NCBI GenBank assembly: GCA_030695415.1
Contig: JAUYQZ010000046.1
Coordinates: forward strand, 124,001 to 188,000
Length of the DNA stretch: 64,000 nt
Origin: Hylemonella sp.
GTDB lineage: Bacteria > Pseudomonadota > Gammaproteobacteria > Burkholderiales > Burkholderiaceae_C
Direction of reading: 5' to 3'
Part shown: positions 41,245 through 53,085 of the stretch, in pieces
How the letters are laid out: each line of letters opens with the position of its first letter
How positions within the stretch are numbered: position 1 is the first letter of the stretch
Notes under the pieces: model-generated
The model's database searches: none
The model's input: the letters and a program-made list of their open reading frames with translations, nothing else
What the model was told of the DNA's origin: nothing
Translations under genes and position numbers: made by a program

Positions 41245-42045
41245 ATGTTTCTTGAACCCCAGTTGATCGTCGAACTGGCCCTGATGGGCGTGTGTGCCGG
41301 TTTTCTGGCGGGCCTGCTGGGCATCGGCGGCGGCATGATCATGGTGCCCTTCATGACCATCATCCTGGAGGCCAAGGGCTTTCCCGATGAGTACGTGGTG
41401 AAGATGGCGGTGGCCACCTCGCTGGCGACGATCTGCTTCACCTCCCTCTCCTCGGTGCGCGCGCACCACAAGCACGGTGCCGTGCTGTGGCCGGTGGCGC
41501 GCCTGCTGGCGCCGGGCATCCTGGTGGGCGCGCTGATCGGCGCGCAGATCGCCGCCGCGCTGCCCACGCGCATCCTGGGCCTGGTGTTCTCGCTCTTCAT
41601 CGCCTACTCGGCCACCCAGATGTTCCTGGACCGCAAGCCCAAGCCCTCGCGCACGCTGCCCGGCGGCCTGGGCATGTTCGGCATGGGCAATCTGATCGGC
41701 TTGCTCTCCTCGGTGGTGGGCGCCGGCGGGGCCTTCGTCTCGGTGCCCTTCATGACCTGGTGCAACGTCAAGATCCACCAGGCCGTGGCCACCTCGGCCG
41801 CGCTGGGCTTCCCGATCGCGCTGGCCGGCACCCTGGGCTATATCTGGGCCGGGCGCGGCCTGCCCGACATGCCGCCGGGTGCCTTTGGTTACCTGTACCT
41901 GCCCGGCCTGCTGGTGATCGCCACCACCAGCATCCTGACCGCGCCGCTGGGAGCGCGTACGGCGCACCGCATGGACATCCGTCCGCTCAAGCGGGCCTTC
42001 GCTGTGGTGCTCTACCTGCTGGCAGCCTACTTTCTGATGCGTTGA
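41245..42045 (+). CDS. TauE/SafE-family membrane exporter
   Basis: 266 residues from the ATG at 41245; an earlier GTG at 41194 lies inside the 6S RNA and is rejected. About eight membrane helices in two halves, each with the family GIGGG-type motif: AGFLAGLLGIGGGMIMVPFM in the first and LSSVVGAGGAFVSVPFM in the second. The family (also called sulfite exporter or DUF81) moves sulfite, sulfoacetate or other organic anions. The oxalate locus begins just downstream, so a carboxylate substrate is possible, but nothing in the sequence decides this. Confidence 0.85.
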   Translation: MFLEPQLIVELALMGVCAGFLAGLLGIGGGMIMVPFMTIILEAKGFPDEYVVKMAVATSLATICFTSLSSVRAHHKHGAVLWPVARLLAPGILVGALIGAQIAAALPTRILGLVFSLFIAYSATQMFLDRKPKPSRTLPGGLGMFGMGNLIGLLSSVVGAGGAFVSVPFMTWCNVKIHQAVATSAALGFPIALAGTLGYIWAGRGLPDMPPGAFGYLYLPGLLVIATTSILTAPLGARTAHRMDIRPLKRAFAVVLYLLAAYFLMR

Positions 42046-42125: not shown

Positions 42126-43061
42126 ATGCGTATTGCCATCATTGGCCAACAGGATTTCGGCAAGGCCGTGCTTGAAGCCTTCCTGGCACGCGGCGACGAA
42201 GTCGCCGGCGTGTTCTGCAAACCGGAAAAGCCGGGCGAGAAGCCCGATGCCCTGCGCGCCGCGGCCGAAGCCGCAGGCCTCAAGGTCTTCCAGTTACCCA
42301 GCCTCAAGAATCCGGAAGCAGAGCAGGCCCTGCGCGAGCTGAACGTGGACCTCGGCATCATGGCCTACGTGCTCCAGTTCGCACCACAGTCCTTCGTGAG
42401 CATCCCGAAGCATGGCACCATCCAGTACCACCCTTCCCTGCTGCCGAAGTACCGCGGCCCTTCGTCCATCAACTGGCCGATCGCGCGCGGCGACACCCAG
42501 ACCGGTCTGACCATCTTCCGCCCCACCGACGGGCTGGACGAGGGCCCGGTGATCCTGCAGAAGACCTGCCCCATCGGCCCCGACGACACGCTGGGCGACG
42601 TCTACTTCAAGCACCTCTTTCCCCAGGGCGTGGCTGCCATGCTGGAAGCCGCCGATCTGGTGCTGGCCGGCAAGCACAGGGAAGTGACGCAGGACGAAGG
42701 CCAGGCCAGCTACGAAGGCTGGTTCAAAGGCGAGGAGTCGAAGATCAACTGGGCCAACCACGTGGACCAGGTCTACAACCTCATCCGCGCGTGCAACCCG
42801 GCGCCCGGCGCCTGGTGCGAACTGGGCGGTGTGAAGGTCTCAGTCTACGATTGCCGCAAGCATCCCGTGCGCACTTTTGGTGCGGTGCGCGGCAAGCCCG
42901 GTGAGGTGGTGCAGATCACGGATCAATCCCTCTTCATCAATGCCCAGGGCGGCACGATCGAGGTGCTGCGTCTCAAACCCGAAGGGGGCAAGAAGATGGA
43001 AGCCGGCGAGTTCGCCCGCATCCAGGGATTGCAGGCGGGCGGTGAGAAGAAGGCCGGCTGA
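42126..43061 (+). CDS. Formyltransferase resembling the hydrolase domain of 10-formyl-THF dehydrogenase
   Basis: 311 residues, the length of both Fmt and the N-terminal hydrolase domain of 10-formyltetrahydrofolate dehydrogenase (ALDH1L). The start MRIAIIGQQDFGKAV, the block HGTIQYHPSLLPKYRGPSSI with catalytic His102, and TDGLDEGPVILQK with Asp138 match the ALDH1L hydrolase (His106, Asp142) more closely than tRNA-Met formyltransferase. The C-terminal domain (about 205-300) is present. There is no acyl-carrier or dehydrogenase domain. GAGGGG precedes the start and a strong terminator follows. Beside formyl-CoA genes it may hydrolyse 10-formyl-THF or move formyl groups between folate and CoA-derived formate; this is inference. 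Confidence 0.83.
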   Translation: MRIAIIGQQDFGKAVLEAFLARGDEVAGVFCKPEKPGEKPDALRAAAEAAGLKVFQLPSLKNPEAEQALRELNVDLGIMAYVLQFAPQSFVSIPKHGTIQYHPSLLPKYRGPSSINWPIARGDTQTGLTIFRPTDGLDEGPVILQKTCPIGPDDTLGDVYFKHLFPQGVAAMLEAADLVLAGKHREVTQDEGQASYEGWFKGEESKINWANHVDQVYNLIRACNPAPGAWCELGGVKVSVYDCRKHPVRTFGAVRGKPGEVVQITDQSLFINAQGGTIEVLRLKPEGGKKMEAGEFARIQGLQAGGEKKAG

Positions 43062-43357: not shown

Positions 43358-43371
43358 TTGACCGCAATCAA
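43358..43371. promoter_or_regulatory. FNR-like operator upstream of tctC (TTGACCGCAATCAA)
   Basis: Inverted half-sites TTGAC and ATCAA, four bases apart, fit the FNR/Crp-type consensus TTGAT-N4-ATCAA with one change. It lies 118 bases ahead of the tctC start. The same element with a perfect palindrome stands upstream of oxc (48331-48344), next to a Crp/Fnr-family gene. No clear -10 was found at class II spacing. Confidence 0.6.
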
Positions 43372-43488
43372 GAGCAATTTTGCGAGAAAATTTCACAGTT
43401 GGGTCAGATCGGTTGCCGCAAGGTGGTCGAGAGACAAACGCAGAGTGGTCTTTCAATTGACAGACGTTCCATCAACAGGAGACAAGAC

Positions 43489-44511
43489 ATGAAGAACCTT
43501 CAAACCAAACTGAGAGGCCGAGTGGTGGCCGCGGCCGCCGCCGTCATCGCGGCGGCCGGCCTGAGCGCCTCGCTGCCGGCCCTGGCCTGGGAGCCGACCA
43601 AGCCGGTCGAGTTCGTGGTGCCCGCCGGCACGGGCGGCGGTGCCGACCAGATGGCCCGCCTGATGCAGGGCATCGTCATCAAGCACAACCTGATGAAGCA
43701 GTCCCTGATCGTGGTGAACAAGTCGGGTGGCGCTGGCGCCGAAGGCTTCCTCTCGGTCAAGGAAGCCAAGGGCGATCCGCACAAGATCATCATCACCCTC
43801 TCCAACCTGTTCACCACGCCGATGGCCACCGGTGTTCCCTTCAACTGGAAGGAAATGACCCCCGTCTCCATGATGGCGCTGGACCAGTTCGTGCTGTGGG
43901 TCAATGCCGAGAAGCCGTACAAGACGGCCAAGGAATACCTGGATGCTGTGAAGGCCGCTGGCCCGAACAAGATGAAGATGGGCGGCACGGGCTCCAAGCA
44001 GGAAGACCAGATCCTGACCGTCGGCATGGAAAAGGCCACCGGCACCAAGTTCATCTACATCCCCTTCAAGGGCGGTGGCGAGGTGGCCGTGCAGCTGGTC
44101 GGTGGTCACGTTGACTCCAGCGTGAACAACCCGGCTGAAGCGGTGGCCCAATGGCGTGCCGGCAAGCTGCGCGCCCTGTGCGTTTTCGACGACACCCGCA
44201 TGCCCTACAAGGCCAAGGTCACCGACACCCAGTCCTGGAACGACATCCCGACCTGCAAGGAAGCGGGCGTGCCGGCTGACTACGTCATGCTGCGCGGCAT
44301 CTTCACGTCCCCCGGCGTCACGGCCGACCAGATCAAGTACTACGTTGATCTGATGCAGAAGATCCGTGCCACTCCGGACTGGAAGGAGTACATGGAAAAG
44401 GGTGCCTTCAACCAGACCTTCATGACCGGTGCTGAGTTCACCAAGTGGCTGACCGCTGCTGAAGACAACCACCGCGCGCTCATGCAGGAAGCCGGCTTCC
44501 TGGCCAAGTAA
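43489..44511 (+). CDS. Tripartite tricarboxylate transporter substrate-binding protein (TctC/Bug family)
   Basis: 340 residues from the ATG at 43489 (AACAGGAGAC upstream). A signal peptide (about 1-33, ending PALAW) precedes the Bug fold: EFVVPAGTGGGADQMARLM near residue 45, and IIITLSNLFTTP, both typical ligand-binding beta-strand-to-helix loops, then GGTGSKQEDQ and VGGHVDSSVNNPAEA. Bug proteins capture small carboxylates in the periplasm. Its place with oxalate genes suggests oxalate, formate or a related acid. It is first in an operon with TctB- and TctA-like genes; an intercistronic hairpin follows it. Confidence 0.88.
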   Translation: MKNLQTKLRGRVVAAAAAVIAAAGLSASLPALAWEPTKPVEFVVPAGTGGGADQMARLMQGIVIKHNLMKQSLIVVNKSGGAGAEGFLSVKEAKGDPHKIIITLSNLFTTPMATGVPFNWKEMTPVSMMALDQFVLWVNAEKPYKTAKEYLDAVKAAGPNKMKMGGTGSKQEDQILTVGMEKATGTKFIYIPFKGGGEVAVQLVGGHVDSSVNNPAEAVAQWRAGKLRALCVFDDTRMPYKAKVTDTQSWNDIPTCKEAGVPADYVMLRGIFTSPGVTADQIKYYVDLMQKIRATPDWKEYMEKGAFNQTFMTGAEFTKWLTAAEDNHRALMQEAGFLAK

Positions 44512-44521
44512 GACGACAACA

Positions 44522-44551
44522 GCGGGTCCGGCCACACGCGCCCGGACCCGC
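44522..44551 (+). other. Intercistronic hairpin between tctC and tctB
   Basis: A perfect 10-bp stem GCGGGTCCGG / CCGGACCCGC (44522-44531 with 44542-44551) with a 10-base loop. No T-run follows, so it is not a standard terminator. It starts 11 bases after the tctC stop. Such hairpins often protect the upstream binding-protein message and lower downstream expression, giving more binding protein than permease. Confidence 0.7.
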
Positions 44552-44658
44552 ATTTCCCGGAACCTCCGCAACTGCATAGTGGGACGGTCGCCAGCCGAGA
44601 CTGGCGCTGACCCGAGTTTTTTGCCGCCTGAAATTTTCTTATCCGCACTTAACTCGTC

Positions 44659-45180
44659 ATGGAATCGAACATGGAAACACACGAAGGCGAACGCACCGGC
44701 GTAGCCACCAACATCATCGACGCGGCCGTTGCGGTCTTGGTCATCATCATGGGTGGCGTTGTCATCTATGGCAGCCGCAAGCTGGGTTCCGAGTGGACCA
44801 GTGACGGCCCCGGCGCTGGCTACTTCCCCTTTTACATCGGCCTCATCCTCTGCATCTCCGGCATTGGCGTGCTGTACCAGGCCCTGGCTGGCAAGGTCAA
44901 GAACACCGAGGTGTTCGTCGATGGCGAGTCCTTCAAGCGCGTGCTGTCGGTGCTGTTGCCGGCAGCTGTTTACGTCGGCTTCATCCAGGTCCTGGGCATC
45001 TACGTGTCCTCGGCGCTCTACATCGCGCTCTTCATGATCATCCTGGGCAAGTACGGCTGGCTCAAGAGCGTGATCATCGCCCTGGCCGTCAACGCCCTCT
45101 TTTTCATGATGTTTGAAGTCTGGTTCAAGGTGCCCTTGCACAAGGGCTCGCTCGATCCGCTCGCCTTCCTGGGCTATTGA
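44659..45180 (+). CDS. Tripartite tricarboxylate transporter small membrane subunit (TctB family)
   Basis: 173 residues from 44659 (a second ATG at 44671 is possible). Four membrane helices: about 20-38, 55-75, 95-115, and 125-155, with the typical GPGAGYFPFYIGLILCISG motif after the first. TctB is the small subunit that pairs with TctA. It lies 32 bases before the TctA gene. Family assignment is by topology and this motif. Confidence 0.85.
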   Translation: MESNMETHEGERTGVATNIIDAAVAVLVIIMGGVVIYGSRKLGSEWTSDGPGAGYFPFYIGLILCISGIGVLYQALAGKVKNTEVFVDGESFKRVLSVLLPAAVYVGFIQVLGIYVSSALYIALFMIILGKYGWLKSVIIALAVNALFFMMFEVWFKVPLHKGSLDPLAFLGY

Positions 45181-45212
45181 GCACCTACGCAGAATAACGG
45201 AGATCAGAAAAA

Positions 45213-46742
45213 ATGGAAGAAATCAACGCACTGTTCCAGGGCTTCGCCACAGTGATGACGCCCATGAACTTTTTGCTCATGGTGGTCGGAATCATCCTCG
45301 GCGTGCTCATCGGCGTGCTGCCGGGTTTGGGCGGCGCCAACGGCGTGGCCATCCTGCTGCCGCTGACCTTCAGCATGAACCCGACTTCGGCCATCATCAT
45401 GCTGTCCTGCATCTACTGGGGCGCCCTCTTCGGCGGCGCCATCACGTCGATCCTGTTCAACATTCCGGGGGAACCCTGGTCGGTGGCCACCACCTTTGAC
45501 GGCTATCCCATGGCCCAGAAGGGCAACGCAGGCGAAGCGCTGACCGGCGCCTTCACCTCGTCCTTCATCGGCGCCTTCGTGGCCGTGGTGATGATCACCT
45601 TCATGGCGCCGCTGGTCGCCAAATTCGCCCTGAAATTCGGCCCGCCCGAGTTCTTCTCGGTCTATCTGCTGACCTTCTGCAGCTTCGTCGGCATGGGCAA
45701 GGGTTCGCCCTTCAAGATCCTGGCTTCCATGACCATCGGCTTTGCCCTGGCCTCGGTCGGCATGGACACCGTGACCGGCCAGCTGCGCCTGACCTTCGGC
45801 TTCTCCGAGCTGATGCGCGGTTTCGACTTCCTGATCGCGGTGATCGGCCTGTTCGGTATCGGTGAGATCCTGCTGTCCATGGAAGAAGGCCTGGCCTTCT
45901 CCGGCAAGAGCGCCAAGATCGATGCCAAGATCGTGCTGCAGACCTGGAAGAAGCTGCCCAAGTACTGGGCCACGTCGGTCCGCAGTTCCTTGATCGGCAT
46001 CTGGATGGGCATCACCCCCGGTGGCGCCACCCCGGCGTCCTTCATGGCCTACGGTATCGCCAAGAAGGTGTCCCCCAACGGCTCCAAGTTCGGCACCGGC
46101 GAGCTCGAAGGCATCGTGGCGCCGGAGACCGCCGCCCACGCGGCCGGTACCGCCGCCCTGCTGCCCATGCTGGCTCTTGGTATCCCGGGTTCGCCCACGG
46201 CGGCCGTGCTGCTGGGTGGCCTGCTGATCTGGGGTCTGCAACCCGGCCCGCTGCTTTTCGTCGAGCAGAAGGATTTCGTCTGGGGCCTGATTGCTTCCAT
46301 GTACCTGGGCAACCTGGTGGGCCTGCTGGTGGTGCTGACCACCGTGCCGCTGTTCGCCTCGATCCTGCGCATCCCCTTCTCGATCATCGCCCCGGTGATC
46401 ATCGTGATCTGCGCGATCGGCGCCTACACCGTGCACAACGCCATGCTCGATATCTGGTTCATGCTGCTGTTCGGCGTGGTGGGCTACGTGTTCAAGAAGC
46501 TCGATTACCCGATCGCACCGCTGGTGCTGGCCCTGGTGCTGGGCGACAAGGCCGAGGACTCCTTCCGCCAGGCCATGCTGGTCTCGCAGGGTGAGATGTC
46601 GATCATGTTCTCCAACCCGCTGGTGGGCTCGATCACCACCCTCGCCCTGCTGCTGCTCTTCTGGCCGGTCATCTCCAAGGTGATCGCCCTGATCAAGCCG
46701 CCCAAGAAGGACGAGTTCGCCGACCAGCGCGGCGTGGACTGA
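45213..46742 (+). CDS. Tripartite tricarboxylate transporter large membrane subunit (TctA family)
   Basis: 509 residues with about 12 membrane helices. TctA hallmarks: GVLIGVLPGLGGANGVAILLPLTF near residue 40, YWGALFGGAITSILFNIPGEP, then GITPGGATPASFMAYG and ALGIPGSPTAAVLLGGLLIWGL in the second half. These glycine/proline loops form the paired substrate sites. The subunit drives ion-coupled uptake of the carboxylate delivered by TctC. The gene is followed after 22 bases by a cytidylate-kinase-like/BON gene in the same operon. Confidence 0.92.
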   Translation: MEEINALFQGFATVMTPMNFLLMVVGIILGVLIGVLPGLGGANGVAILLPLTFSMNPTSAIIMLSCIYWGALFGGAITSILFNIPGEPWSVATTFDGYPMAQKGNAGEALTGAFTSSFIGAFVAVVMITFMAPLVAKFALKFGPPEFFSVYLLTFCSFVGMGKGSPFKILASMTIGFALASVGMDTVTGQLRLTFGFSELMRGFDFLIAVIGLFGIGEILLSMEEGLAFSGKSAKIDAKIVLQTWKKLPKYWATSVRSSLIGIWMGITPGGATPASFMAYGIAKKVSPNGSKFGTGELEGIVAPETAAHAAGTAALLPMLALGIPGSPTAAVLLGGLLIWGLQPGPLLFVEQKDFVWGLIASMYLGNLVGLLVVLTTVPLFASILRIPFSIIAPVIIVICAIGAYTVHNAMLDIWFMLLFGVVGYVFKKLDYPIAPLVLALVLGDKAEDSFRQAMLVSQGEMSIMFSNPLVGSITTLALLLLFWPVISKVIALIKPPKKDEFADQRGVD

Positions 46743-46764
46743 CAGTAGACAGGAGAAATACAAC

Positions 46765-47598
46765 ATGCCCGTAATTGCACTGACCCAAGGAATGGGCTCG
46801 CTGGCCCAGGATGTCGCCGAGAAACTTGCGGCTGACCTCGGCCTGCAGAGCCTGGAGCACGAGGTGGCGGCCCGGGTGGCCGACAAGATGCACGTCTCCA
46901 AGAGCCTGATCAACCGTCTGCGCAGCGGCAAGGCCGGCCTGATCGAAGGCCTGCGTGCCGACAAGGAGGCCATGGCGCTTTACACCGCCGAGGAAGTGCT
47001 CGACGCCGCCGCGCGCGGCAATGTCGTCATCCGCGGCTGGGGCGCTACTCAGCTGCTGCGCGCCGTGCCCCACATCCCGTGCATCCGCATCATGCGTCCG
47101 CTCGAGCAGCGGGTCGAATGGCTGATGAAAAAGCTGGAGACGGATGACCGCGACCTGGCCCGGGCCGAGATCCAGCGCAGCGACCAGGCCAATGCCGCAC
47201 GCATGCACGATCAGTTCGGCGTGAACTGGGGTGACCCGGTGCTGTTCGACGCGGTGCTGAACACCGAGCGTCTGAGCGTGGACAGTTGTGTCGACCAGAT
47301 CAAGAACCTGCTCAAGCGCCCCGAGTTTGCCGAGACCCCGGCATCGAAGACGCTGCTGCAGTGCATGGCGCTCAGCGCCCGGGTGCGGGTCGCCCTGTCG
47401 ACACACGCGGAAACGCATGCGGTCGATGTCTCGATTTCCTGCCTGGATGGCCGCGTGACGCTGGCTGGCATCGTCGCCGACGACACCGAGAAGGCCGCGG
47501 CACTTCGTGTTGCCGAGGGCGTGGCCGGCGTGAAGTCGGTCGACAGTCAACTGCGCGCGTTCTCCGACGCCCGGCACTTCCCCACCAACCGCCGTTGA
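46765..47598 (+). CDS. Cytidylate-kinase-like protein with C-terminal BON domain
   Basis: 277 residues. Residues ~1-190 resemble the cytidylate-kinase-like family (PF13189): VIALTQGMGSLAQDVAEKLAADLG at the start, ARGNVVIRGWGATQLLR, and IRIMRPLEQRVEWLM. The phosphate-binding loop is weak, with no GK[S/T] (only GMGSLAQ). Residues ~200-277 look like a BON domain (VDVSISCLDGRVTLAGIVADDTEKAAALRVAEGVAGVKSVDSQL). There is no signal peptide, so a BON domain here is cytoplasmic, unusual for the family. It follows TctA by 22 bases after AGGAG and is likely an accessory or sensory factor of the transporter operon. Function is unknown. Confidence 0.75.
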   Translation: MPVIALTQGMGSLAQDVAEKLAADLGLQSLEHEVAARVADKMHVSKSLINRLRSGKAGLIEGLRADKEAMALYTAEEVLDAAARGNVVIRGWGATQLLRAVPHIPCIRIMRPLEQRVEWLMKKLETDDRDLARAEIQRSDQANAARMHDQFGVNWGDPVLFDAVLNTERLSVDSCVDQIKNLLKRPEFAETPASKTLLQCMALSARVRVALSTHAETHAVDVSISCLDGRVTLAGIVADDTEKAAALRVAEGVAGVKSVDSQLRAFSDARHFPTNRR

Positions 47599-47608
47599 AC
47601 GACGGCCC

Positions 47609-47635
47609 GCCGTGCCGACCCCGCGTCGGCACGGC
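47609..47635. other. Strong palindromic hairpin between convergent genes
   Basis: Perfect 11-bp stem GCCGTGCCGAC / GTCGGCACGGC (47609-47619 with 47625-47635), 5-base loop. No T-run on either strand, so termination, if any, would be weak or Rho-assisted. It lies between the kinase/BON gene and the convergent Crp/Fnr gene. Confidence 0.6.
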
Positions 47636-47650
47636 CCCCTCCCCTGCCTA

Positions 47651-48259
47651 TCAGATCTTGCCGCGCTGCTTGAGCCGGCTGAGCGTCTCTGCCGAGAGGT
47701 TCATGTAGGCCGCGAGTTCCTTCTTCGGGATGCGGTCGAAAAGTTCAGCGTGCTTTCGCACGAAACGATGCACACGCCCCGGCGCATCGAGCAAGTGCAG
47801 CGTGATGGTGTGCGCCATGATCTCGCTCATCAGATTCATGACGCAGTACTCGAACAGGCGTTTTTCCTCAGGGTGCCGCTCCAGGAATCCGATCCACTCG
47901 GGCATGGGCAGCTTGACCACCCTCGCCTTCGTGACGCAAACAATGCTGTAGGGCGCGGGCGTCTTCAGACACCATGCGGCGTAGCTGGTTTCCATCTCGC
48001 GTTCAGCGGCAAAGCGCAGGATCATTTCCTTGCCCTGGGCGTTGGCCACCACCCGCTTGAGCACCCCGTCCAGGATGAAGTACTGCTCCATATCGTGCAC
48101 ACCCTGGTGCAGCAGGAAGTCTCCCTTGCTGCAATCCACCACCGTGAGGTGCCGCTCCAACTCCTCGTGCGACGCCGCACTCATGCCCTTGAGCACATTG
48201 TTCTGGCGGACTTGAACCCGAATGATGTTCTTTTCCGGATGATTTTCGATGGCTGTCAT
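47651..48259 (-). CDS. Short Crp/Fnr-family transcriptional regulator
   Basis: 202 residues. An N-terminal cyclic-nucleotide-binding-like barrel (about 20-125: KGDFLLHQGVHDMEQYFILDG) and a dimer helix precede the helix-turn-helix KKELAAYMNLSAETLSRLKQ. Recognition residues Glu191, Ser194 and Arg195 match the E-x2-SR pattern that reads TTGA half-sites in FNR. The protein stops right after the recognition helix, without the usual wing. It lacks the FNR Cys cluster for an Fe-S centre, so oxygen sensing by that route is unlikely. It diverges from oxc across a palindrome and probably controls the oxalate genes; the ligand is unknown. Confidence 0.88.
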   Translation of the reverse strand: MTAIENHPEKNIIRVQVRQNNVLKGMSAASHEELERHLTVVDCSKGDFLLHQGVHDMEQYFILDGVLKRVVANAQGKEMILRFAAEREMETSYAAWCLKTPAPYSIVCVTKARVVKLPMPEWIGFLERHPEEKRLFEYCVMNLMSEIMAHTITLHLLDAPGRVHRFVRKHAELFDRIPKKELAAYMNLSAETLSRLKQRGKI

Positions 48260-48330
48260 GGTCCAGGGATCGCGCTTTCGCGCCCGTAGCGGGTCGGCCT
48301 GCGAGGGAGGCCGGATATTTGTCCCGAAAA

Positions 48331-48344
48331 TTGACCGTGGTCAA
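48331..48344. promoter_or_regulatory. Perfect FNR-like operator between the regulator and oxc (TTGACCGTGGTCAA)
   Basis: Half-sites TTGAC and GTCAA around CGTG. If TATCAT at 48367-48372 is the oxc -10, transcription would start near 48379 and the palindrome centre would lie at about -41.5, the classical class II activator position. It may also autoregulate the divergent Crp/Fnr gene. The same element, slightly changed, occurs upstream of tctC. Confidence 0.7.
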
Positions 48345-48366: not shown

Positions 48367-48372
48367 TATCAT
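48367..48372 (+). promoter_or_regulatory. Candidate -10 box of oxc (TATCAT)
   Basis: TATCAT with a T-rich flank; four of six consensus bases. The call rests mainly on its spacing from the upstream FNR-like palindrome. The 5' leader to the oxc ATG would be about 160 bases. Confidence 0.4.
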
Positions 48373-48541: not shown

Positions 48542-50284
48542 ATGTCCAACGACGCTCAATCCAGAGAACTGACTGACGGTTTCCACCTGGTCATCGATGC
48601 TCTGAAACTCAACGGCATCAAAAACATCTACGGCCTGCCGGGCATTCCGGTCACGGATCTGACCCGCATGATGCAGGCTGAAGGCCTGCGCGTGATTTCC
48701 TTCCGCCACGAAGCCAACGCCGGCAACGCTGCCGCCATCGCCGGCTTCATGAACGGCGCCGAGGGCGTGCCCGGCATCTGCCTGACGGTGTCCGCCCCCG
48801 GCTTCCTGAACGGCCTGGTTGCACTGGCCAACGCCACCACCAACTGCTGGCCCATGATCCTGATCTCCGGCTCCTCCGAGCGCGAAATCGTCGACCTGCA
48901 GCAGGGTGACTATGAAGAGATGGACCAGCTGGCCATCGCCAAGCCCCTGTGCAAGGCCGCCTACCGCGTGCTCAACGCCGAAGACATCGGCGTGGGCATC
49001 GCCCGCGCCATCCGCTCCGCCGTTTCCGGCCGCCCGGGCGGTGTCTACCTGGACCTGCCCGCCAAGCTGTTCTCGCAAGCCATGGACGCCGCCGCCGGCA
49101 AGGCTTCGCTGATCAAGGTGGTTGATCCGGTGCCGCGCCAGATCCCCGGACCCGACGCTGTCAAGCGCGCGCTGGACCTGCTCAAGGGCGCCAAGAAGCC
49201 CCTGATCCTGCTGGGCAAGGGCGCCGCTTACGCCCAGGCCGATGCCGACATCAAGGCCCTGGTCGAGAAGACCGGTATCCCCTACCTGCCCATGTCCATG
49301 GCCAAGGGCCTGCTGCCCGACACGCACGAGCAGTCTGCTGCAGCTGCCCGTTCCTACGTGCTGCCGGAAGCCGACGTGGTGCTGCTGATCGGTGCGCGCC
49401 TGAACTGGCTGCTGTCGCATGGCAAGGGCAAGACCTGGGGCGGCAAGGACCACAAGGACGCCGGTGGCCAGAAGTTCATCCAGATCGACATTTCGCCCAC
49501 CGAAGCCGACAGCAACGTGGCCATTGATGCCCCGCTGGTGGGTGACATCGGCTCCTGCGTCTCCGCCCTGCTCGCTGGCATCGGCTCCAACTGGGCCAAG
49601 CCCCCGGCCGAGTGGACCAACGCGATCACCGAACGCAAGACGAAGAACGTCGCCAAGATGGCCGAGACCCTGGCCAAGGATCCCAAGCCGATGAACTTCC
49701 ACAGCGCCCTGAACGTGGTGCGCGACATCGTCAAGGCCAACCCCGACGCCATGCTGGTCAACGAAGGCGCCAACGCGCTGGACTTCACCCGCTCCATCGT
49801 CGACATGTACAAGCCGCGCAAGCGTCTGGACGTGGGCACCTGGGGCGTGATGGGCATCGGCATGGGCTTTGCCGTCGCTGCCGCCGTCGAATCCGGCCAA
49901 CCGGTGATCGCCATCGAGGGTGACAGCGCCTTCGGTTTCAGCGGCATGGAAGTCGAGACCATCTGCCGCTACAACCTGCCGGTGTGCGTGGTCATCATGA
50001 ACAACAACGGCGTCTACCGCGGCACCGACGTGAACCCGACCGGCGGCGCTGATGTGGCCCCCACCGTGTTCGTCAAGGGCGCGCGTTACGACAAGCTCAT
50101 GGAAGCCTTCGGCGGTGTGGGCGTCCACGCCACCACCCCGGCAGAACTGCGCAAGGCGATGGAAGAAGCCATCAAGTCGCGCAAACCCACCCTCATCAAT
50201 GCCGTCATCGACGAAACCGCCGGCACCGAGAGCGGCCGCATCACCAGCCTGAACCCGGCCAGTGTTGCGACCAAGAAGCACTGA
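48542..50284 (+). CDS. oxc: Oxalyl-CoA decarboxylase
   Basis: 580 residues, close to the Oxalobacter enzyme. It is a thiamine-diphosphate enzyme with three domains: PYR (about 1-190, catalytic Glu57 in RHEANAG), central nucleotide-fold (about 195-360, binding ADP as activator in known enzymes) and PP (about 370-560) with the cofactor motif [13 protein letters not shown]...MNNNGVYRG. It converts oxalyl-CoA to formyl-CoA and CO2 in the cytoplasm. The formyl-CoA transferase gene follows 33 bases later. Codon use is very regular, consistent with high expression. Confidence 0.96.
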
Positions 50285-50317: not shown

Positions 50318-51592
50318 ATGTCTGGAAACCAACCCCTCAAGGGCATCAAGATCATCGACTTCACGCACGTGCAAGCCGGCCCGGCCTGCACCCAGCTGCT
50401 GGCCTGGTTCGGCGCTGACGTGATCAAGGTCGAGCGCCCGGGCGCCGGCGACGTCACCCGCAGCCAGCTGCGCGACATCCCCGATGCCGACGCACTCTAC
50501 TTCACGATGCTCAACAGCAACAAGCGTTCGCTGACGCTGGACACCAAGACGGCCGAGGGCAAGGAAGTGCTCGAGAAGCTGATCAAGAAGTCCGACGTCA
50601 TGGTCGAAAACTTCGGCCCCGGCGCGCTCGATCGCATGGGCTTCACCTGGGAGTACATCCAGAAGCTCAACCCCGGCATGGTCCTGGCTTCGGTCAAGGG
50701 CTTCAGCGATGGCCACCACTACGAAGACCTGAAGGTCTACGAAAACGTGGCCCAGTGCGCCGGCGGCTCCGCCTCGACCACCGGCTGGTGGAAGGGCGAG
50801 AACTCCCAGCCGACCATCTCCGCTGCGGCTCTGGGTGACTCCAACACCGGCATGCACCTGGCTATCGGCATCCTGACCGCCATCATCGGCCGCCAGCAGA
50901 CCGGCAAGGGCCAGAAGGTGGCCGTGTCCATGCAGGACGCCGTGCTCAACCTGTGCCGCGTGAAGATGCGCGACCAACAGCGCCTGGAGCGCCTGGGCTA
51001 CCTGGAAGAGTATCCCCAGTATCCGCACGAGATGGAAGCGTTCAAGGACCGTGTGACCCCGCGTGGCGGCAACGCCGGCGGCGGCGGCCAGCCGGGCTGG
51101 ATCCTGAAGTGCAAGGGCTGGGAGACCGACCCCAACGCCTACATCTATTTCACGGTGCAGGGCCACGCCTGGGAGCCGATCTGCGACGCGCTGGGCAAGC
51201 CGGAGTGGAAGACCGACCCCAAGTACACCACCCCGAAGGCTCGCCAGCCGCACATCATGGACATTTTCGCCACCATCGAAAACTTCATCAAGGACAAGAC
51301 CAAGTTCGAAGCGGTGGACATCTTCCGCAAGTTCGACATTCCTTGCGCCCCGGTGCTGTCCATGAAGGAACTGCTGGTTGACGAGTCGCTGCGCAAGAGC
51401 GGCTCCATCGTGGAAGTGCCCCACCCCGTGCGCGGCAGCTACTTCACCATTGGCAGCCCGATCAAGTTCTCGGACCTCAAGCCCGAAGTCACTGCCTCCC
51501 CGCTGCTGGGCGAGCACACCGACCAAGTACTGGCCGAGCTGGGTTACAGCAAGGACCAGATCGTGGCCATGCACGGCAAGAAGGCGGTCTGA
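50318..51592 (+). CDS. frc: Formyl-CoA:oxalate CoA-transferase
   Basis: 424 residues from the ATG at 50318, which is eight bases from AAGGAG (50304-50309); the ATG at 50312 is too close. Class III CoA-transferase with catalytic Asp174 in [14 protein letters not shown], the substrate region TTGWWKG, and the mobile glycine loop [11 protein letters not shown], all as in Frc/YfdW. It moves CoA from formyl-CoA to oxalate, yielding oxalyl-CoA for Oxc and free formate. It is downstream of oxc in the same transcription unit, and a strong terminator ends the unit. Confidence 0.95.
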
Positions 51593-51837: not shown

Positions 51838-53085
51838 ATGACCAAGGCCCTCGAAGGCGTCCGCATCCTCGACTTCACGCACGTGCAGTCGGGGCCCACC
51901 TGCACCCAGTTGCTGGCGTGGTTCGGCGCGGACGTCATCAAGGTGGAAAAGGCCGGTGAAGGTGATGCCACGCGCGGACAGCTGCGTGACGTCGAAGGTG
52001 CCGACAGCCTGTACTTCACCATGCTCAACCACAACAAGCGCTCCATCACCCTGGACACCAAGAATCCCAAGGGCAAGGAAGTGCTGGTCAAGCTGATCAA
52101 GGAATGCGACGTCATGGTCGAGAACTTCGCCCCTGGCGCGCTTGACCGCATGGGCTTCCCCTGGGAGAAGATCCAGGAGATCAACCCCCGCATCATCCTG
52201 GCCTCGGTCAAGGGCTTCGGCCCCGGGCCCTACGTCGATTGCAAGGTCTACGAGAACGTGGCCCAGTGCACCGGCGGCGCGGCCTCCACCACGGGCGACC
52301 CGGACGGCCTGCCCATGGTGACGGGCGCCCAGATCGGCGACAGCGGCACCGGCCTGCATCTGGCCCTGGGCATCGTCACCGCCCTGTACCAGCGCGAGAA
52401 GACCGGCCGCGGCCAGAAGGTGCTGGCTGCCATGCAGGACGCCGTGCTGAACCTGTGCCGCGTCAAGCTGCGCGACCAGCAGCGCCTGGAGCGCACCGGC
52501 GAACTGCGCGAATACCCGCAGTACCCCGACATCGAGTTTGGCGAAGCCGTGCCGCGCGCCGGCAACGCCTCGGGCGGCGGCCAGCCCGGCTCCATCCTGA
52601 AGTGCAAGGGATGGCAGAAGGATCCCAACGCCTACATCTACTTCATCACGCAGGGCGCCGTCTGGCCGGCCATCTGCAAGATCATCGGCGAGGAAGACTG
52701 GATCACCAACCCGCACTTCGCCACGCCGCAGGCCCGCCTGCCGCACCTGAAGATGATCTTCGCGCGCATCGAGGAGTGGACCAAGACCAAGACCAAGTTC
52801 GAGGCGATGGACATCCTCAACGAGTTCGACATCCCCTGCGGCCCCATCCTCTCCATGAAGGAGATCGCCGAGGACCAGTCGCTGCGCGACACGGGCACCA
52901 TCGTGGAAGTCGATCACCCGGTGCGTGGCAAGTACCTGAGCGTGGGCAACCCCATCAAACTTTCGGACAGCCCGACCGAGGTGACCCGTTCGCCGCTGCT
53001 GGGTGAGCACACCGACGAGGTTCTGAGGCAGATGGGCTACAGCTCGGCCCAGCTCGAGGAACTGCGCGCCGCCAAGGCCATCTGA
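51838..53085 (+). CDS. Second formyl-CoA transferase-like CoA-transferase (class III)
   Basis: 415 residues. Close overall to the first Frc but with its own promoter. Catalytic Asp168 is kept ([14 protein letters not shown]). Two substrate-pocket differences stand out: TTGDPDG instead of the aromatic TTGWWKG, and the glycine loop reads [11 protein letters not shown] instead of [11 protein letters not shown]. These may change donor or acceptor choice, for instance using another acyl-CoA with oxalate. ACCAGGAG lies just before the start. Convergent with the HD-GYP gene across a shared terminator. Confidence 0.88.

Follow-up and report, generated by a model that had tools for sequence, protein, structure and literature searches.

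How oxalate enters a cell that breaks it down, and what controls its uptake and breakdown together, is the question raised by a locus in the window, a 64,000-nucleotide stretch of DNA from Hylemonella sp. (contig JAUYQZ010000046.1, positions 124,001 to 188,000). The locus combines the genes of oxalyl-CoA decarboxylase (oxc) and formyl-CoA transferase (frc), a divergent gene for a regulator of the Crp/Fnr family, and tctCBA, which encodes a tripartite tricarboxylate transporter (TTT). From the letters of the window, it had been predicted that two FNR-like sites, one before oxc and one before tctC, place both units in one regulon and that TctCBA imports oxalate. As a whole, this explanation (a dedicated oxalate regulator, a shared regulon, and oxalate import by TctCBA) is considered probable on comparative sequence evidence. 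In many freshwater and soil bacteria, the oxalate-breakdown genes and the pump genes share this conserved control site next to a small regulator gene, which suggests that oxalate is taken up through the pump and not by way of the antiporter known so far.

Both 14-base sites are found at their predicted positions. The first, TTGACCGCAATCAA, occupies 43358..43371 on the plus strand, 131 bases ahead of the tctC ATG (43489); the second, TTGACCGTGGTCAA, occupies 48331..48344 on the plus strand, between the divergent regulator gene (47651-48259, minus strand) and oxc (ATG 48542). The second site had been described as a perfect palindrome, which is true of its 6-base arms TTGACC and GGTCAA but not of its central GT, which is not self-complementary; the site at 43358 is an imperfect palindrome. 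Within the window, TTGACNNNNRTCAA yields 3 strand-matches (2 sites) against a shuffle mean of 0.17, with 3 being reached in 1 of 100 shuffles, and TTGACCNNGGTCAA yields 1 match against 0.01 in shuffles. The whole 3.7-Mb genome (G000) contains 19 sites of the looser pattern, corresponding to 28 strand-matches, with 3 for the reversed pattern. No further oxalate gene was seen near the 17 other sites (16 stretches with 4-kb surroundings, open reading frames named by eye). In a weight matrix derived from 108 oxc and tctC sites, the two window sites rank 1st and joint 4th of the 19; hence, the matrix gives no clean separation. Because the genome holds 19 such sites, the evidence from it is modest, and the sites are only modestly beyond chance within this single genome. 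The evidence becomes strong because the site is conserved across species.

Conservation was followed in two overlapping sets. The first consists of 78 named loci from a regulator scan of genome contigs plus the window, all Betaproteobacteria according to their titles. The scored stretch was the 350 bases upstream of gene starts projected by tblastn, with starts near contig ends being excluded. With the window included, TTGA-N6-TCAA precedes oxc in 69/69 cases, tctC in 46/52, and the regulator gene in 77/79; reversal of these stretches as a control yields 0. Most Comamonadaceae-type loci have a single site that is shared by oxc and the regulator gene. In a distant group with a different gene order (about L073-L113), frc heads its own unit and carries its own site; all 24 of the 66 second frc copies (frc2) that have a site belong here. 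The neighbouring formyltransferase-family gene (fmt) has none (0/43). The second set comprises the 51 genomes with oxc among 299 family genomes, where the site precedes oxc in 48/50, tctC in 30/30, and the regulator gene in 48/48. Inside the units it is absent upstream of tctB (0/32), tctA (0/32), frc1 (0/37), and frc2 (0/42), as well as of fmt (0/11) and the kinase/BON gene (0/18); tauE has it in 1/16. The two oxc genes without a site belong to L122 and L134. L122 has tctCBA-oxc-frc on the same strand, with a tctA-oxc gap of 149 bases, and its site stands before tctC; the genome of L134 (G049) is without the regulator. The 14-base site is retained while its flanks vary among loci, and oxc promoters mostly carry the extended core TTGACC/GGTCAA. 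The original prediction of one regulon for oxc-frc and tctCBA was staked on related genomes keeping the sites ahead of oxc and tctC, and both sets bear it out.

Regulator and site also stay together in split loci. The regulator of the G029 oxc locus is not accompanied by a transporter, and tctCBA is located on another contig; despite this unlinking from oxc, tctCBA is preceded by TTGACC-N2-GGTCAA, 41 or 86 bases ahead of its start. In a phylum-wide sample of 398 genomes, 30 contain oxc, 28 of them besides G000 and G042. Five of these 28 have the site before oxc, and all five contain the regulator, which adjoins oxc in four. In the fifth (G603), regulator and oxc lie on different contigs and oxc keeps its site; the regulator is near an frc-fmt pair with a TTGA-N6-TCAA match about 0.5 kb upstream. 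Of the 23 outside genomes without the site, 13 were searched whole, and the regulator is absent from all 13. Taken together, the comparative evidence supports the regulon well.

The predicted box TATCAT (48367..48372, plus strand, offset 36 from the site start) is the probable −10 box of oxc, and it would put the centre of the 48331 site near −41.5. A TANNNT box 34 to 39 bases past the site start occurs in 59 of 63 different oxc promoters, compared with 1/63 and 4/63 in control windows, and at the same spacing in 23 of 24 frc2 promoters. For tctC promoters, a −10 box at the expected spacing is found in only 2 of 45, which counts against the proposal. The class II arrangement, meaning a centre at about −41.5 with fixed spacing to the −10 box, is therefore seen at oxc and frc2 and not at tctC, and because of these counts activation from about −41.5 is well supported for oxc and frc, but not for tctC.

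What TctCBA carries is approached through its genetic company. The three genes, tctC for the periplasmic substrate-binding protein (43489..44511; PF03401, 108.7 bits), tctB for the small membrane subunit (44659..45180; PF07331), and tctA for the large membrane subunit (45213..46742; PF01970, 497 bits), are encoded together on the plus strand with all three domains above cut-off, as in a TTT. Within 3 kb of the regulator, the 51 genomes of the family set hold tct genes in 33 cases, the antiporter gene oxlT in 11, and neither in 4, with no regulator in the stretch in 3; the named set of 78 gives 57, 9, and 12, and 7 of these 12 loci with neither have less than 2.5 kb of sequence on that side. 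All six tested OxlT-type proteins beside the regulator pass the TIGR04259 cut-off. Close TctA homologues (E up to 1e-190) number 81 in 80 of the 299 family genomes. Of these 81, 33 (identity 81-100%) have oxc no more than 10 kb away, and 34 (identity 72-80%) have a homologue of oxalyl-CoA synthetase within the same distance; 34 of the 42 matches to this synthetase are near TctA. Genome co-occurrence is 69/80 versus 22/219 across the 299 family genomes, uncorrected for kinship. For one such synthetase (L166), the best solved relatives are 5ie0 (oxalate-CoA ligase of the Arabidopsis type, 435 bits) and 6qjz (oxalyl-CoA synthetase, 419 bits), compared with 220 bits for malonyl-CoA synthetase; among the matches listed (25 of 103 families), it is above no NCBIfam cut-off. 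Of 17 sister tct loci fetched, 14 hold the synthetase together with a PanE-like reductase, and the site precedes tctC in 0 of these 14. In a TctA tree built from 58 of 111 rows, 54 rows group together, separate from 4 paralogues, and contain both the oxc-linked and the synthetase-linked forms; the synthetase-linked rows do not make up a single clade, and the set of 54 also takes in the long rows L181 and L183. Two further genomes (G580 and G495), which by kinship are outside the class and are probably Alphaproteobacteria, combine oxc-frc, tctCBA (TctA 75%), and oxlT in a single neighbourhood that has neither the regulator nor the site.

The AlphaFold2 model of TctC has a predicted local distance difference test score (pLDDT) of 84, and its best fold match is 4x9t with a template modelling (TM) score of 0.80; TphC, BugD, and others match as well. 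The model and the fold search confirm the family and cannot name the ligand. According to the family review, TTT binding proteins share the loop signature P-F-x-A-G-G-x-x-D, of which P, G, G, and D are most conserved and the Phe packs on the ligand chain (PMC5812351). In the window, this loop reads PAGTGGGAD, with P, G, G, and D kept and Ala at the Phe position, and the same motif recurs in oxc-linked (77 of 83) and synthetase-linked (14 of 14) TctC proteins. For 30 other TctC loci of the genome, the motif pattern picks up the loop in 16, and Phe is present in 8 of these; the window TctC is an outlier with the second lowest score among the 50 of the genome. The Ala is suggestive, though no more. 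The genome is also rich in such binding proteins, with 50 TctC-family genes versus 3 TctA genes. Overall, the linkage to oxc and to the synthetase homologue and the exchange with OxlT-type antiporters support TctCBA as an oxalate importer, and oxalate import is likely.

Besides the spacing at tctC, several observations weigh against the proposal. Some of the 19 pattern sites in the genome precede unrelated genes, most oxlT genes of the second set are without a site (6/15 have one), and G052 has the site before oxc with the regulator not found in its 340-contig assembly. Furthermore, 14 of the 81 close TctA homologues have neither oxc nor the synthetase in their vicinity (several at contig ends), tctCBA and oxlT occur together in L042 and L112, and L181 sits by genes that look glyoxylate-type by eye, so that the wider TctA clade may take other small acids. 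Of the alternatives, the one that survives best takes the regulon as real and lets TctCBA carry a related C2-C3 acid (glyoxylate, glycolate, tartronate, or another), with oxalate using another carrier. It would accommodate the coexistence of tctCBA and oxlT in L042, L112, G580, and G495, the L181 homologue outside oxalate loci, whose TctC has a different pocket motif, and a pocket model that does not single out a ligand. However, the TctA clade has links to two distinct enzymes that activate oxalate (33/81 and 34/81), and OxlT-type genes substitute for tctCBA beside the same regulator. This alternative is regarded as unlikely.

A second alternative concerns the identity of the regulator. The gene at 47651..48259 (minus strand) encodes a Crp/Fnr-family protein of 202 amino acids with the N-terminal domain of the superfamily, which resembles cyclic nucleotide monophosphate (cNMP)-binding domains (PF00027, 34.0 bits, cut-off 27.5). 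The match to HTH_Crp_2 is weak (13.2 bits, cut-off 27), and the solved relative 3dn7 aligns to the C terminus. The Glu-x2-Ser-Arg recognition pattern claimed for it is present as Glu191, Ser194, and Arg195, and the segment ETLSR is invariant in 26 of 26 aligned orthologues, which also keep S189 and, in the sensor domain, the charged and polar residues R69, K77, R82, and T91-S92-Y93. No cysteine is found among the invariant or nearly invariant columns of these 26. FNR proper combines Glu-x2-Ser-Arg in the recognition helix with conserved cysteines for a 4Fe-4S cluster, and its consensus is TTGAT-N4-ATCAA. The term "FNR-like" hence fits the recognition residues, but neither the missing cysteines nor the sites, which are mostly TTGACC...GGTCAA. 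Because of the lack of a conserved cysteine, the protein is not an iron-sulphur FNR; by its sequence, it is a short Crp/Fnr-family protein and not FNR itself. A general oxygen regulator of the FNR/Anr type could nevertheless bind the sites in place of the neighbouring gene product, with oxalate use being merely oxygen-controlled. In line with this, TTGAC-N4-RTCAA overlaps the FNR consensus, one of the 19 genome sites lies 5 bases ahead of a gene resembling ccoN (named by eye), a usual FNR/Anr target, and G000 has 14 matches to the cNMP-binding domain. Against it stand the extended TTGACC/GGTCAA core in most oxc promoters and the outside oxc genomes, where the site is found only alongside this regulator (5/5, with the regulator in 0/13 siteless genomes searched), which makes an FNR/Anr-type control highly improbable. 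That shared ancestry of the gene block alone preserves the sites, with no joint function, is scarcely credible: the loci and genomes do overlap and are related, with counts uncorrected for phylogeny, but the 14 bases stay while the flanks differ, the site survives splitting of the block (G029, G603), and genes inside the block are without it.

For the preferred explanation, the following mechanism is proposed. The product of 47651-48259 would be a dedicated regulator of oxalate use that binds TTGACC-N2-GGTCAA-type sites before oxc-frc-frc and before tctCBA-kinase/BON, and activation, at minimum that of oxc, would proceed from about −41.5 in class II geometry. The trigger is probably intracellular oxalate or a product such as oxalyl-CoA, which we infer to be the effector. 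TTTs are ion-driven importers. TctC would capture periplasmic oxalate and TctBA would import it by ion-driven symport, whereupon Frc and Oxc would convert it into formate and CO2. The enzymes of this pathway are well matched: oxc (48542..50284, plus strand) scores 981 bits in TIGR03254 (cut-off 739), and the two frc copies (50318..51592 and 51838..53085, plus strand) score 716 and 719 bits in TIGR03253 (cut-off 504), so that both steps are covered by equivalogs above cut-off. G000 contains a formate dehydrogenase alpha-subunit gene above its NCBIfam cut-off; therefore, the formate from Frc/Oxc would be oxidisable and an exit by antiport unneeded.

The remaining genes of the locus flank this core. 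The tct run is closed by a gene for a protein with cytidylate-kinase-like and BON domains (46765..47598, plus strand; PF13189, PF04972), a fusion that takes this place in the window and some relatives and not in others. Upstream of tctC, fmt (42126..43061, plus strand; PF00551, PF02911) is a possible accessory oxalate gene, whose best solved relatives are the hydrolase domains of 10-formyltetrahydrofolate dehydrogenase (197 bits). In 27 of 52 fmt-bearing loci, frc and fmt are adjacent on one strand, and the pair recurs in G603 (L296); company of fmt and frc was noted at 42126-43061, L074-L113, and G603 (L296). As stated in one report, formyl-CoA hydrolase is without a known gene (PMC10192776), and the fmt-type protein is a candidate for it. 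Ahead of fmt is a gene for a TauE/SafE-type permease (41254-42045), a possible anion exporter; adjacent tauE-fmt pairs on one strand occur in 19 cases among L036-L163. In L073, L074, and L178, a thiamine-diphosphate enzyme replaces oxc beside the same regulator, TctCBA, and Frc, with PRK05858 and 2-hydroxyacyl-CoA lyase as best matches, both below cut-off. PanE-like reductase and fumarylacetoacetase-family genes are seen both in the sister tct loci and near oxc loci (L048, L055, L065-L070, and some of L114-L160), which may point to a side branch that reduces oxalyl-CoA.

A broader generalisation is rather doubtful. Aerobic Betaproteobacteria, together with some relatives of the G580/G495 kind, might import oxalate mainly by a dedicated TTT, with oxalate as a new class of substrate for the family and with two or more enzymes that activate oxalate (Frc/Oxc, an oxalyl-CoA synthetase) as its evolutionary partners; the regulator might be a Crp/Fnr-type sensor of oxalate or oxalyl-CoA that needs neither haem nor an iron-sulphur cluster nor cyclic AMP; and the formyltransferase-like neighbour might be the long-missing formyl-CoA hydrolase (EC 3.1.2.10) or a formyl donor to tetrahydrofolate. 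If the proposal is true, import by way of a binding protein would account for the use of low oxalate levels by aerobes, a clear marker gene for oxalate uptake would be at hand, and a substrate would be added to a transporter family of largely unknown range. The small regulator might moreover be built into an oxalate sensor.

The protein families involved are known, and what is new is the assignment of oxalate to a TTT as its likely substrate and the regulator-site pair. Titles and abstracts searched contain no oxalate TTT and no oxalate regulator of the Crp/Fnr family, which is a weak absence as subscription literature is mostly outside their coverage. Oxalate is named nowhere in the main text of the TTT family review (PMC5812351), and PMC12543098 mentions neither oxalate nor tripartite. 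OxlT is treated as the oxalate transporter in PMC9476978, PMC10192776, PMC12927642, and PMC3886118.

Four known systems invite comparison. PanE2 of Methylobacterium extorquens is given as a putative oxalyl-CoA reductase in PMC8411744. The sister tctCBA clade resembles this system by its PanE-like reductase and oxalyl-CoA synthetase homologue; in the window's loci no such reductase-synthetase pair was found, and the window uses Frc/Oxc instead. With FNR/Anr and other Crp/Fnr regulators, the window regulator shares the cNMP-binding-like domain, E-x2-S-R, TTGA half-sites, and the −41.5 position at oxc. In contrast to FNR/Anr, it is without conserved cysteines, ends directly past the recognition helix, and has the site core TTGACC/GGTCAA and a local oxalate regulon. 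Other TTTs (the TctCBA citrate system and those of the binding proteins BugD/BugE, MatC, AdpC, and TphC) are alike in the domain order TctC, TctB, TctA and in fold, whereas the window TctC has Ala where the ligand-packing Phe stands. Finally, OxlT, an oxalate:formate antiporter of the major facilitator superfamily (MFS), likewise serves oxalate breakdown by Frc/Oxc and lies beside the same regulator in some relatives. It is a one-protein antiporter, whereas TctCBA consists of three parts, one of them a periplasmic binding protein, and its fold is unrelated; as the original prediction held, TctCBA is unlike the OxlT-type MFS carriers, with TctA, TctB, and TctC matching TTT families only and not TIGR04259.

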